This document shows positions 74-34,666 of a DNA stretch of 37,901 nucleotides, piece by piece. A program made the position numbers and the translations under genes. The notes under the pieces are model-generated. The model had not been told where the DNA came from and did not search any database. It worked only from the letters and a program-made list of their open reading frames with translations. The stretch covers positions 1 through 37,901 of the forward strand of contig MEXR01000052.1 in NCBI GenBank assembly GCA_001773775.1, in the 5' to 3' direction. Origin of the DNA: Candidatus Amesbacteria bacterium RIFOXYB1_FULL_44_23 (GTDB lineage Bacteria > Patescibacteriota > Microgenomatia > CAZETR01 > Amesbacteraceae). The first letter of the stretch is position 1. Every line of letters begins with the position of its first letter.

Positions 74-1545
74 GCAGAAGAATCGAAATACTGGCGATTG
101 TGTTGGTTTTAATCCTGGCCGCTTTCTCGCGTCTGTACAGAATCGGGGACTATATGACATTTTTAGGTGACGAAGGTCGGGATGCCATTGTTGTTAGAGA
201 CATTGTGTTGGGTCGCCATTTTCCCTTAATAGGTCCGGGTACTTCCGTTGGCAGCATGTACCTGGGGCCTCTTTACTACTACCTGATTGCCCCGTCGCTA
301 TTTATATCTGACCTCTCACCTGTTGGCCCGTCAGTATTTGTAGCCATCCTGGGCATAGCTACCGTTGCCATGATTTTGTACATCTCCAAAGACTGGTTTG
401 GCTTTATTCCGGCTATAGCTATTTCCACCCTTTACGCAATTTCTCCGGTAGTAATCATCTACTCCCGTTCGTCATGGAATCCCAACGTCATGCCCTTTTT
501 TGCACTGTTAACCATGTTTTCCGTATACAAAATCTGGCAGTCCCAAAACTGGCGCTGGTTAATCGTCACCGCAGTATCACTTGCATTCGTTCTCAATTCC
601 CATTATCTGGGTTTGTTGTTACTTCCGCCCGTTTTCTTTTTTATTCTTATCTCCAAAAATCTCCTCCCGTCTAAACGACTGATTATTAAATCATTGGCGA
701 TTTTCTGCTTTCTGATGTCTCCACTGCTGTTTTTCGATATCCGTCATTCCTGGACCAACTTCACCGCCCTGAAAACATTTTTTACCAATCGCGAAACGAC
801 AGTCAATCTCAAAGCCTATAAGGCCATTCCCAATATTTGGCCGATTTGGCAGGATGTAAATACTTCTCTTCTTGCCGGAGGTCAAAAACAGTTAGGTCAG
901 ATTGTGTCCGTTGCCTTACTGTCATTTTCGCTGGTTTTATTAATTAAACAACTGGCAACCAAAACCATTGACCCAAAATTTGTTTTCATTCTGGTTTGGT
1001 TACTGTCCGGCCTGGTGGGACTCGGACTTTATAAACAACACATTTATGCACATTACTTCGGATTCATTTTTCCCGCCCCTTTCTTTTTACTGGGGTATTT
1101 CTTTTCCGCAGCCAGGAAAAGCAATTTTGTATTAAAGATTTTGTTGGCAGTCCTATTTTTGACTATCTTGGCAGCGATGATTCAAAGCCATCCCTTAAGA
1201 TCATCACCCAATCGCCAACTTTTTCTTACTCAAAGAGTCTCTCGCTATATAACCGAACAAAGCGGAGGTCAGCCGTTTAATTTGGCCCTGCTGGCCAAAA
1301 GTAACTACGACGCCGGATATCGCTACTTTTTCTATCTCGAAAACAGTCCCTACTTTACTATTCATCAAAAAATTACGGACCAGCTATTCGTAATTTGCGA
1401 ACTTGAATCAAGAGCAGCCTGTGAACCTATCAACAATCCGTTGTGGGAGATAGCCTCCTTTGGTTGGGCCAAAATTGACGTTGAATGGGAGCTTGCCGGT
1501 GGCGTACGCATTTTCCGCTTAGTTCATAACCCAACCGGATCATGA
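55..1545 (+). CDS. GT39/PMT-like polytopic membrane glycosyltransferase
   Basis: 496 aa, many TM segments, N-terminal acidic motif FLGDEGRD and LIGPGTSVGSMYLGPLYYYLIAP signature. Confidence 0.85.
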   Translation: MVPFAVGRRIEILAIVLVLILAAFSRLYRIGDYMTFLGDEGRDAIVVRDIVLGRHFPLIGPGTSVGSMYLGPLYYYLIAPSLFISDLSPVGPSVFVAILGIATVAMILYISKDWFGFIPAIAISTLYAISPVVIIYSRSSWNPNVMPFFALLTMFSVYKIWQSQNWRWLIVTAVSLAFVLNSHYLGLLLLPPVFFFILISKNLLPSKRLIIKSLAIFCFLMSPLLFFDIRHSWTNFTALKTFFTNRETTVNLKAYKAIPNIWPIWQDVNTSLLAGGQKQLGQIVSVALLSFSLVLLIKQLATKTIDPKFVFILVWLLSGLVGLGLYKQHIYAHYFGFIFPAPFFLLGYFFSAARKSNFVLKILLAVLFLTILAAMIQSHPLRSSPNRQLFLTQRVSRYITEQSGGQPFNLALLAKSNYDAGYRYFFYLENSPYFTIHQKITDQLFVICELESRAACEPINNPLWEIASFGWAKIDVEWELAGGVRIFRLVHNPTGS

Positions 1546-3020
1546 AGCTCATAAATCGGATCATTTCACATCGGTTTTTTGTTCCTGTATTGCTCCTGGC
1601 AGCTTTGTTTCTGCGCGTTTACCGATTAGGAGCCTTGACCGGTTTTTACTTTGATCAGGGTCGGGACGCCAAAATTATTTGGGATCTCTGGCACTCGGGT
1701 AAATTCTTTTTGATCGGACCGACTACCGGGATTGAGGGCATATTTTTGGGACCGTTCTATTATTATCTGATCGCCCCTTTCTATTTGATTGGAAACGGTA
1801 ATCCGGTAATAGTCTCAATTACTTTGGCGGTTATAAACGTTCTGGGCATTTACGTTATTTACAAAATAGGCAAAGAGTTTTTCAGCCAGTCAGCCGGTCT
1901 TTTGGCCTCAACATTCGTCGCGTTTTCACTTCCCCTGGTACAGGCTCATCGTTGGCTTTCAAATCCCACTCCACTGCCTCTATTCTCCGCCACCAGTGTC
2001 TGGATGCTTCTTAAAATTATCACCGGCTCAACAAGTCCCCTGGTTTGGTCGGTTTTAGGTCTGTGCCTGGGATTAGGTCTTCAGCTTGAAGCCGCCTCAG
2101 CCGTATTTTTCCTTCCGGCTACTTTATTAGTCTTTTTGATATTCCGAAAAAATATTAATTGGAGTCTTAACCTGCTGCATCTGATTTTCACTTTTTCACT
2201 GACTCTGATTCCCCAGCTGTGGTTCAATTTTCGCCACGACAACATTCTGTTTGCTGCCTTTGCCAGGTTTTTATTGGCCGAGAAAAGTTTTACCCCGGTT
2301 CTTAGTGACTTCTATCGTCAGCGTTTATTTTTTTACTTTGACACTTTTTCTCAGAAATTCTTTTTAGACCGCAATCTGGCCATTCCGTTTGGCGTCATTT
2401 TGTTAGTGGCCTTTTTGCTGACTTTCAGGAAATTTAAAAAAGTTTTTTGGGGCCTCACCATTATCTGGGTTACCCCGTTAGTCTTTTTGTTGTTTTATCA
2501 CGGCAACTACGGCTTTGTTTGGGATTATTACTTCACCGGAATCTATTCCATATTCGCTTTATTTGCCGCCGTAGTTTTGACTGCTGCCGCCGGGCAAAAT
2601 AAATTATTCAGAAATGTAGTCGGGGCAGTTGTGGTGGTATTTCTGGTCACCAATGTATTTCATTTGCGAAACTATCTGTCAGCCGGAACCGATGGGCCGA
2701 CTACTGTAGTGTTAGAACCGTCACTAGCAGCAGTCGATGCGGTTTACTCGGATGCCGGCGATAAACCTTTCAACGTTGACGTTTACGTCCCTCCGGTCAT
2801 ACCTCATGCCTATGACTACCTGTTTTTATGGCGTGGGCACACCAAATATCAAAAGCAACCCAATTCTGACCTGCAACCGCTGTTGTATTTAGTTTACGAG
2901 GTTGATCCACCACATCCGGAAAGACTTGAAGCCTGGCTCACCCGGCAAAACACTTACGCCAGGATGATCAGTCAATTCAGGTTTGGCGGTTTGACGGTGG
3001 AAAAACGCCTGCGTTTCTAA
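1542..3020 (+). CDS. GT39/PMT-like polytopic membrane glycosyltransferase
   Basis: 492 aa, FDQGRDA and LIGPTTGIEGIFLGPFYYYLIAPFYLI signature; ATGA overlap with previous gene. Confidence 0.85.
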   Translation: MKLINRIISHRFFVPVLLLAALFLRVYRLGALTGFYFDQGRDAKIIWDLWHSGKFFLIGPTTGIEGIFLGPFYYYLIAPFYLIGNGNPVIVSITLAVINVLGIYVIYKIGKEFFSQSAGLLASTFVAFSLPLVQAHRWLSNPTPLPLFSATSVWMLLKIITGSTSPLVWSVLGLCLGLGLQLEAASAVFFLPATLLVFLIFRKNINWSLNLLHLIFTFSLTLIPQLWFNFRHDNILFAAFARFLLAEKSFTPVLSDFYRQRLFFYFDTFSQKFFLDRNLAIPFGVILLVAFLLTFRKFKKVFWGLTIIWVTPLVFLLFYHGNYGFVWDYYFTGIYSIFALFAAVVLTAAAGQNKLFRNVVGAVVVVFLVTNVFHLRNYLSAGTDGPTTVVLEPSLAAVDAVYSDAGDKPFNVDVYVPPVIPHAYDYLFLWRGHTKYQKQPNSDLQPLLYLVYEVDPPHPERLEAWLTRQNTYARMISQFRFGGLTVEKRLRF

Positions 3021-32214: not shown

Positions 32215-33024
32215 ATGTATTGGCTGCGTAAGAGGCTCCTTTCTCAGAACTTCCTCACAAATCGGCAGTTAATCAAAAAACTGATCCGAGGCTCTTCTAT
32301 CGGCAAGAATGACTTAGTTTTAGAAATAGGCGCAGGTAGTGGCGTTATTACCAATGAGTTATTACAAGTCGCCGGCCAAGTGGTAGCCATAGAGTTGGAT
32401 CCCAAATTGTACGCTAAATTACGCTCCCGATTTGTCACAAATCCCAGGCTACAGCTAGTCCAGTCTGATTTTCTTGGCTGTCCGCTTCCCCGAAAGCCTT
32501 ACAAGGTTTTTTCCAATATTCCCTTCAGTATTACGGCAGATGTTATTCGTAAACTGCTTGTGCCATTAAATCCACCCCTGGATTGTTATTTGGTAATGCA
32601 GTCTCAGGCAGCTGAAAAATTTACCATCAACTCCACGGCAAATTCAATGGCTGCTGTTTTATACTACCCCTGGTGGAAATTCGAAGTGGTTCACAAGTTT
32701 AGCCCTCTTGATTTTTACCCCCGCCCTTCCGTTGATTCAGTCCTGTTGCATATTTGCCCCAGACCGACTCCATTAGTATCAGAAAACCCGAGCTTGTACC
32801 GGGATTTTGTTGTTCATTCATTCACCACCGATAAGAAAGCCAAATTCCTACCCGTCAACCAGTGGTTGTATCAGTTTAACCATCTTTCGCCAAAGAAAAT
32901 TAAGCTTGTTCAGAGTTCATTTGCCAAGTATTTAAAGTCACAGCAATTATTGTCTAAGATTCACCGGACTCGTACCGACAGCAATTGGCGCCAGTTCAAA
33001 AAGTCCTCCTTGACCTTCCAGTAA
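32215..33024 (+). CDS. rRNA adenine N6-dimethyltransferase family, Erm-like
   Basis: LLSQNFLTNRQLIKKLI (motif X), LEIGAGSGVITNELL (motif I), SNIPFSITADVIRKLL (NIPF motif IV), FSPLDFYPRPSVDSVLL. Start moved to ATG 32215 because GGAGG lies just upstream. Confidence 0.85.
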   Translation: MYWLRKRLLSQNFLTNRQLIKKLIRGSSIGKNDLVLEIGAGSGVITNELLQVAGQVVAIELDPKLYAKLRSRFVTNPRLQLVQSDFLGCPLPRKPYKVFSNIPFSITADVIRKLLVPLNPPLDCYLVMQSQAAEKFTINSTANSMAAVLYYPWWKFEVVHKFSPLDFYPRPSVDSVLLHICPRPTPLVSENPSLYRDFVVHSFTTDKKAKFLPVNQWLYQFNHLSPKKIKLVQSSFAKYLKSQQLLSKIHRTRTDSNWRQFKKSSLTFQ

Positions 33025-33040
33025 CTGGAAGGTATATATT
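33010..33040 (+). promoter_or_regulatory. MerR/CueR-type promoter-operator with 19-bp spacer and perfect dyad
   Basis: TTGACC (33010-33015), 19-bp spacer, TATATT (33035-33040); dyad ACCTTCCAGT-A-ACTGGAAGGT at 33013-33033. Confidence 0.85.
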
Positions 33041-33047
33041 CAGGTCT

Positions 33048-33512
33048 ATGGATAACCACACGATTGGCCAGACGGCAAAAATAACTGGGCTCTCACCCAA
33101 GACCATCCGTTTTTATGAGGAGTCCGGGGTAATTACTCCGGCCACGCGTGGTGAAAATGGATACCGCGCTTATACCCAAAAATCCATAGAGGAACTCAAG
33201 GTACTTAAATATGCCAGGGACTTGGGACTTCCGTTATCCGAGATTAAAAAGCTGATGCGTGGCTGTGAAGATGGCAATTGCGCCCATTCCCGGAACTATA
33301 TTCTGGACTCAATTACCAATTATTTGAAAATATTAGACGACCGCCTGGGCCAGATGCAGCTCCTAAGAAGTAAACTAAATGATTTACAACAAAAAATGAC
33401 CTCTGGCGATTCCAGCTGTAATAATGGGGGCTTCTGCTGTGACATCCTGCACCAGTTAGTTGACGTTCCAGTGTCCAAAAAAGGAGGTGATACAAATGAA
33501 GGATCCGACTAG
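33048..33512 (+). CDS. MerR-family transcriptional regulator, thiol/metal-sensor type
   Basis: MDNHTIGQTAKITGLSPKTIRFYEESGVITPATRGENGYRAYTQ HTH; Cys at GCEDGNC and C-terminal SSCNNGGFCCDIL loop. Confidence 0.9.
   Translation: MDNHTIGQTAKITGLSPKTIRFYEESGVITPATRGENGYRAYTQKSIEELKVLKYARDLGLPLSEIKKLMRGCEDGNCAHSRNYILDSITNYLKILDDRLGQMQLLRSKLNDLQQKMTSGDSSCNNGGFCCDILHQLVDVPVSKKGGDTNEGSD
33481..33491 (+). promoter_or_regulatory. Extended Shine-Dalgarno sequence
   Basis: AAGGAGGTGAT, complementary over 11 nt to the usual 16S rRNA 3' end, 4 nt before ATG 33496. Confidence 0.7.
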
Positions 33513-33534
33513 TTGTCCCGGAGGTTGCTGCTAA
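33496..33534 (+). CDS. Candidate 12-aa cysteine-rich peptide MKDPTSCPGGCC
   Basis: ATG AAG GAT CCG ACT AGT TGT CCC GGA GGT TGC TGC TAA; overlaps merR 3' end in another frame; full-length SD upstream. Confidence 0.55.
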   Translation: MKDPTSCPGGCC

Positions 33535-34106
33535 ACCTTAGCCTTGGTGTCATGTGCGCGCCATGACATCAGAGCTTGGTCAATTTTCTTATAAAGATCT
33601 TCTTGGCTTCCGTCATTGATTAGAATCATGTCCGCCATCTTCACACACGCAGACAAATTAGTTTTCGTTGGGTCTGGATCGTTCATTTCCCGGGCTTCGT
33701 CAGCCAAAAATTTTTCGAAACTAACTTCATCCTTTGTAGATTTTCTCTCTAATATTCTTGCAAATCTGATCTCCGCTGGGGCGTCAACCGCGATTAATAT
33801 AAAATTACTTTGCTTTTTCAGGTACTCAACCTCACCCACGTTTCTTATGCTTTCGATAACGCAATCATGTCCGGTATTTATTGCCTGAGCATATAGCTGT
33901 CTGATCAGGTAATCATTGCCGAAAAGAGCTCTCATCTGATTGGCTTTTTCCAACATGGTGTCCCTGTTTACTACTTTCTTGTCCGCAATAATTAAGTCAG
34001 TTAGATATCCGGAAACGGATAAGTGGATAAAAGATTTATCATGAAGATACTCGGCAACTGTTCCTTTTCCAGCTCCCAGAGTTCCGGTAATTCCTAAAAC
34101 TATCAT
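33531..34106 (-). CDS. P-loop nucleotide/dephospho-CoA kinase-like protein
   Basis: MIVLGITGTLGAGKGTVAEYL Walker A; CVIESIRNVGEVEYL; LIAVDAPAEIRFARILER. Confidence 0.78.
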   Translation of the reverse strand: MIVLGITGTLGAGKGTVAEYLHDKSFIHLSVSGYLTDLIIADKKVVNRDTMLEKANQMRALFGNDYLIRQLYAQAINTGHDCVIESIRNVGEVEYLKKQSNFILIAVDAPAEIRFARILERKSTKDEVSFEKFLADEAREMNDPDPTKTNLSACVKMADMILINDGSQEDLYKKIDQALMSWRAHDTKAKV

Positions 34107-34192: not shown

Positions 34193-34666
34193 ATGATCAG
34201 CCACCAGCTGAAGTTGACCGCCAGTATTCTGTTGTGTTTGGGAGCCGGTTTTCTTGGTTCGGTGTTTTCTGCCCCGGTGATTGGTACTTGGTACGCTCAG
34301 TTGAATAAACCGTTTTTTAATCCCCCCGGCTGGATCTTCGGGCCCGTCTGGACGCTTCTCTATGTGCTTATGGGAATATCTCTCTACCTGGTCTGGACCA
34401 AACCGGGGGCCCGCAAAAAACATCCGTATGCGGTTAAATTCTTTTTTACTCAGTTGGGTCTTAACGTTCTTTGGTCAGTTATATTTTTTGGGCTGCAAAA
34501 CCCATTAGCCGCGTTACTGGAAATTTTGCTTCTACAGGTAGCTATTCTGATTACAGCCAGATCTTTTCAGTCAATTTCTCATCGGGCAAGCCTATTGCTA
34601 TATCCCTACATCGCCTGGGTCTTTTTTGCTGCGCTTCTGAACTTATCGATCGTCATTTTGAACTAA
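34193..34666 (+). CDS. tspO: TspO/MBR family protein
   Basis: IGTWYAQLNKPFFNPPGWIFGPVWTLLYVLMGISLYLVW; five TMs. Confidence 0.92.
   Translation: MISHQLKLTASILLCLGAGFLGSVFSAPVIGTWYAQLNKPFFNPPGWIFGPVWTLLYVLMGISLYLVWTKPGARKKHPYAVKFFFTQLGLNVLWSVIFFGLQNPLAALLEILLLQVAILITARSFQSISHRASLLLYPYIAWVFFAALLNLSIVILN

Follow-up and report, generated by a model that had tools for sequence, protein, structure and literature searches.

What does a metal-sensing regulator control when the gene that follows it points the other way? This question is raised by a merR gene of Candidatus Amesbacteria bacterium RIFOXYB1_FULL_44_23, located in a stretch of 37,901 bases (hereafter the window) that constitutes the entire contig 52 of a 1.1 Mb assembly (62 contigs, 92% complete). 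The known CueR, ZntR, CadR and MerR members of the family drive pumps, oxidases, chaperones or reductases. The gene that follows merR in the window is a convergent AAA_18 nucleotide-kinase-like ORF (33531-34106, minus strand). A sequence-only reading of the window had pointed to a Cys-rich micro-ORF at the merR stop and had proposed that nothing apart from the regulator and this peptide seems to be expressed from the promoter. Elsewhere in the window, a TspO/MBR family gene (34193-34666, Pfam 6.6e-49) lies two genes from merR, and ORFs resembling membrane glycosyltransferases and GT2 proteins follow one another over positions 1-32070, which on reading appear to be a surface polysaccharide region.

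Anatomy of the merR locus

The N-terminal winged helix and the dimer helix typical of MerR proteins are both present in the regulator (MerR_1, 1.7e-19; MerR, 2e-14; MerR-DNA-bind, 3.9e-6 in Pfam), and its best PDB match is CueR (2.9e-18). The start was placed at the ATG at 33048, the ORF listing also giving an upstream TTG. The best NCBIfam match, TIGR02044 CueR, reached 84.8 bits against a cut-off of 147.4, and the equivalog scores for all the single-metal classes (CueR, ZntR, CadR, MerR) likewise fell under their cut-offs. Judged by these scores, the protein is probably nearest to CueR while standing below every equivalog cut-off, with Cu(I) or Zn/Cd/Hg/Pb as candidate metals. Two Cys residues (73 and 78) lie close to the dimer helix, and three more (126, 132 and 133) belong to the C-terminal tail. 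In the alignment with the relatives described below, the segment with C73/C78 is missing from G793 and the C-terminal Cys are missing from G190; since the sensor Cys differ among members, the metal may differ too.

Direct reading confirmed every element of the micro-ORF that had been described: the Shine-Dalgarno sequence, the gap of 4 nt, the ATG at 33496, the peptide, with three Cys among its 12 residues, and the TAA at 33532-33534. The reported overlap of 17 nt with merR was also correct, the micro-ORF being in the +1 frame relative to merR, which ends with the TAG at 33510-33512, and the micro-ORF stop does overlap that of the convergent kinase-like gene (33533-33531). The coordinates are collected in Table 1.

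Table 1. Features of the merR locus in the window and their counterparts in related genomes.
Feature	Locus	Position	Strand	Sequence	Basis or remark
MerR-type promoter/operator	window	33010-33040	+	-35 TTGACC, 19-bp spacer TTCCAGTAACTGGAAGGTA with dyad ACCTTCCAGTAACTGGAAGGT, -10 TATATT	layout common to all six loci
merR, CueR/ZntR-like metal sensor, 154 aa	window	33048-33512	+		Pfam, NCBIfam and PDB matches
Shine-Dalgarno of micro-ORF	window	33481-33491	+	AAGGAGGTGAT	read directly; within merR 3' end
Micro-ORF, 12 aa, proposed metal-chelating effector peptide	window	33496-33534	+	ATG...TAA, MKDPTSCPGGCC	counterparts in five relatives
Hairpin, 7-nt loop (1 nt + 6-nt palindrome)	window	33548-33568	+	TGTCATG[TGCGCGC]CATGACA, loop T-GCGCGC	probable transcript end
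Peptide	G139, L003			MNGGCCGGGSCC	
Peptide	G336, L112			MRSPPCC	
Peptide	G190, L005			MRIPPCC	
Peptide	G224, L113			MKNCTCCGDECKCGDCKC	
Peptide	G793, L118			MIYNCCGGKCECENCTCK	
Hairpin loop	G139, L003	about 2003-2030		A-TCGCGA	
Hairpin loop	G224, L113	about 1980-2010		A-TCGCGCGA	
Hairpin loop	G336, L112	about 1965-1985		A-CGCGCG-A	
Hairpin loop	G190, L005	about 1400-1430	-	T-GCTAGC	

The peptide in related genomes

Searches of the class and the phylum yielded seven genomes with a short regulator of this kind (profile E 1e-33 or better), separated by a sharp gap from the remainder, which consisted of distant MerRs, mostly of 250-300 aa, at E 1e-16 or weaker; the phylum-wide searches added only distant MerRs and no further member. 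Among genome contigs, the single-sequence scan gave no match and the alignment scan only distant MerRs from other phyla, which were taken as controls. No match was found in viral contigs, and the plasmid records returned only CueR-type matches below 60% identity.

The sequence-only reading had named homologous merR loci lacking the mini-ORF or disrupting its frame, or a mini-ORF left over from a longer gene, as observations that would speak against it. A Cys-rich micro-ORF was found at the merR stop in six of the seven genomes, the window included, in a frame that differs by locus and with its own ATG in each case, and the peptides, of 7-18 aa, never exceed 18 aa in the relatives. The regulators of the five relatives are 34-53% identical to that of the window in the alignment, their neighbourhoods are unrelated, and in all five the start codon of the micro-ORF lies at, or overlaps, the merR stop. 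The Shine-Dalgarno sequence is strong in four of the six members and weaker in G139 (AAGGGGGTGG) and G224 (GGCAGGTGAG). With the exception of the short PPCC pair, the micro-ORF DNA cannot be convincingly aligned across members; what is kept is the ATG, the ribosome-binding site and the richness in Cys (25 of 74 residues over the six peptides, 2-7 in each), with CC at the very end in four of six. The specific motif MKDP..CPGGCC, the conservation of which had been expected, is absent from the relatives, and it is the Cys content that is conserved instead, while sequence, length and frame change. The 18-aa forms, with seven Cys arranged as CxCC..CxCxxCxC and CC..CxCxxCxC, look like metallothioneins. 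Since the frame relation to merR differs by member, what is conserved is an independent start. The same variation in frame and the separate ATG at each locus also rule out the idea that a frameshift joins the peptide to MerR.

The nearest regulator without a micro-ORF is that of G148 (locus L004, 136-1926, minus strand), which has a promoter of the same kind (TTGACA, 19 bp, TACAAT). Where the other members have the peptide, G148 has two genes that we take, from reading, to encode a thiol protein resembling TlpA and a membrane protein resembling CcdA, which points to the place behind merR as that of the effector.

A micro-ORF of this size may also arise by chance, its Shine-Dalgarno sequence being a mere by-product of the codons of a Lys/Gly-rich MerR tail. 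MerR tails do have this composition, and some background was indeed seen at 457 control gene ends taken from 438 kb, made up of the window together with 400 kb of the related genomes G139 and G190: 184 had an ATG micro-ORF within 40 nt, 12 a micro-ORF with at least 2 Cys, and 31 a micro-ORF of any composition with a Shine-Dalgarno sequence. When a length of 5-30 aa, at least 2 Cys and a Shine-Dalgarno match of at least 5 nt were required together, two ends remained, both of merR (window and G190), that of G139 falling just under the threshold with a match of 4. All six loci have a Cys-rich product, whereas no background end outside merR shows matching features. This makes chance a very improbable explanation, contradicted by the relatives, and the micro-ORF is very likely a real, selected gene. 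An ORF of this kind was absent from 11 distinct distant MerR ends of the same phylum, and among 79 distant MerR ends the combination of ATG, Shine-Dalgarno sequence and Cys-rich ORF was seen in locus L080 only. In this Bacillota MAG (about 1220-1870), the only product encoded behind a MerR gene with its own 20-bp-spacer promoter is a 29-aa peptide, MSDKKNCGCGCLLKDNKKDQAKGPEKKEK, which starts 57 nt past merR and precedes a terminator-like hairpin; it may be an independent instance of the merR-peptide design.

Promoter, operator and regulon

In all six loci, TTGAC(A/C), a spacer with a TTCYAG...CTRGAA-type dyad and a -10 element stand directly before merR. A spacer of 19-20 bp is the hallmark of MerR-type promoters (PMC9909328), and the length of 19 bp found in all six, together with the dyad operator, agrees with the CueR/ZntR type. 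In the window, the first base of the -35 element is at 33010 and the merR ATG comes 7 nt past the -10 element (merR start region, 33035-33050); this distance is 6-7 nt in all six loci. Such spacing would put the transcript start on the merR ATG or immediately beside it, and therefore merR is predicted to be translated from a leaderless mRNA, whose strong Shine-Dalgarno sequence would be that of the micro-ORF.

With two mismatches at most, the operator pattern matched a single place in every one of the six genomes, always in front of merR (second rows in the search being the identical dyad on the opposite strand), at a sensitivity at which more divergent sites, for example before a pump, or sites lying in the gaps of incomplete assemblies would be missed. 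As the operator occurs once per genome, merR has no other evident target, and merR and the peptide seem to form the whole regulon, which strengthens the earlier proposal that the promoter delivers only these two. The regulator resembles CueR, ZntR, CadR and MerR in its fold, in the dyad operator within a 19-bp spacer and in its C-terminal Cys, but unlike in these known members the sole detected site is that before the regulator itself.

The downstream hairpin and possible control at the RNA level

A stable hairpin lies closely 3' of the micro-ORF stop in all six loci. In five of them (the window and four of the five relatives) a 6- or 8-base palindrome forms part of the loop, which is 7-9 nt long, and the hairpin of G793 is a plain GC-rich terminator. 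Among 41 hairpins with seven-base loops in the 438 kb, a palindromic loop was found only in the merR hairpins of the window and G139. Rfam gave no match at the hairpins. An integron attC site was also considered and was rejected by eye, the core orientation being wrong. The hairpin may be the transcript end, and it could act as a kissing loop or dimer site, palindromic loops being able to pair two RNA molecules. The next gene is convergent in the window, G139 and G336, which excludes an attenuator for a downstream gene at those three loci; the G224 contig ends downstream, and in G190 the next same-strand ORF begins past the hairpin.

The hairpin bears on the alternative, already raised in the sequence-only reading, that the Shine-Dalgarno sequence and mini-ORF load or stall ribosomes and so affect mRNA stability or termination, the peptide itself being irrelevant. 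Its constant presence behind the micro-ORF, with a palindromic loop in five loci, is compatible with such a role, as is R-x-PP in two members, which recalls RAPP arrest motifs. There is also a precedent for control of this type by metal in CruR (DUF2946) of Bordetella, likewise a small Cys-containing ORF, in which copper binding to the nascent protein controls downstream genes (PMC9426467). CruR, however, lies upstream and acts through RAPP arrest and Rho, whereas the present ORF is the last gene of its unit, with no same-strand gene to control after it in the window, G139 and G336. Moreover, R-x-PP is limited to two of six members, and an element working at the RNA level cannot account for Cys that are kept at differing positions, in unrelated sequences and with mixed TGT/TGC codons. 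This alternative is therefore considered improbable.

Discussion

The best explanation of the locus, to which a probability of roughly two in three is given, is a self-contained, self-regulating, metal-activated operon in which the peptide would be a metal-chelating effector, a proposed micro-metallothionein. The anatomy of this unit is conserved; metal-inducible expression is expected from the MerR-type promoter and from the family of the regulator, and chelation and negative feedback are suggested by the Cys content. One MerR-type promoter would drive both the sensor and a peptide coupled to the merR stop codon. MerR would bind a thiophilic metal, either Cu(I) or one of Zn, Cd, Hg and Pb, and the metal-bound regulator would untwist the 19-bp spacer, giving a transcript whose first base is that of the merR ATG or the one preceding it. 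MerR would be translated leaderless, and ribosomes would also load at the strong Shine-Dalgarno sequence and produce many copies of the peptide. Cys thiolates of one or several peptides would then wrap the metal, the level of free metal would drop and the promoter would be turned off again. In this way, the peptide would act like a metallothionein of about phytochelatin size, but gene-encoded. A regulator with no downstream gene to control, as judged from the convergent next gene in the window, G139 and G336, counts in favour of the peptide as the effector. Against chelation, 7-aa peptides with two adjacent Cys would be weak chelators unless several shared one metal, and peptides so short may be degraded fast; the chelator reading is based on six members.

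The main rival to this explanation is a peptide that serves as a metal chaperone or as a feedback ligand of MerR, delivering or stripping metal and setting the threshold of the response rather than sequestering metal in bulk. Translational coupling to merR would ensure co-production, the regulon seemingly holds nothing else, and the two members with just two adjacent Cys have too few for storage. However, apart from Cys the sequences vary freely, unlike those of a docking partner, the strong Shine-Dalgarno sequence implies a large excess over MerR, and the 18-aa forms have seven Cys, so that this role is regarded as unlikely. The peptide might also be the starting point of a modified natural product, a RiPP of the methanobactin kind, since methanobactin cores are likewise small and rich in Cys. 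A leader peptide is absent, however, 7 aa are too short for leader and core, and no modification or export gene is evident in the same transcription unit at the loci read, which makes this reading very improbable.

Returning to the peptide as a chelator, very high Cys content with CxC, CC and CxxC motifs, as expected of a metallothionein, was found (all three motifs occur in G224 and G793). At 7-18 aa the peptides are too short for profile comparison, which needs 20 residues, and they cannot be filed as metallothioneins. Phytochelatins and methanobactin are thiol peptides of very small size with a role in metal sequestration, the former synthesised enzymatically from glutathione and the latter modified, whereas the present peptide is directly encoded, with no modification genes evident. 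The products of the SmtB-SmtA and BxmR-BmtA pairs are folded proteins of roughly 50 aa, several times larger than the peptides described here. In these pairs, from Synechococcus and Oscillatoria respectively, sensor and metallothionein form one response unit (PMC8790569), and in the same manner a metal sensor and a Cys-rich product, here a putative metal binder, are encoded together in the present loci. Their sensor, however, is an ArsR/SmtB repressor, and prokaryotic metallothionein expression has been proposed to be negatively regulated (PMC8790569), whereas the regulator here is of the MerR activator type. In the open-licence literature, no report was found of MerR-coupled Cys-rich peptides of such size. 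The chances are about even that these loci represent a class of micro-metallothioneins, 7-18 residues long and directly encoded by genes, which are produced from a MerR-activated leaderless transcript that would be the entire regulon of the regulator, with a palindromic-loop hairpin that may pair or end the transcripts; this would be the smallest dedicated metal-detoxification operon, hidden from annotation by a product smaller than any gene-calling limit.

If this explanation holds, one regulator and one peptide of as few as seven residues can suffice for a complete metal response in bacteria with genomes of about 1 Mb. ORFs of such size are omitted by gene callers and databases, and effectors would then have been overlooked wherever a metal sensor seems to be without a target. 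The merR-peptide pair is, moreover, short and portable, and could serve as a compact module that combines a metal reporter with a chelator.
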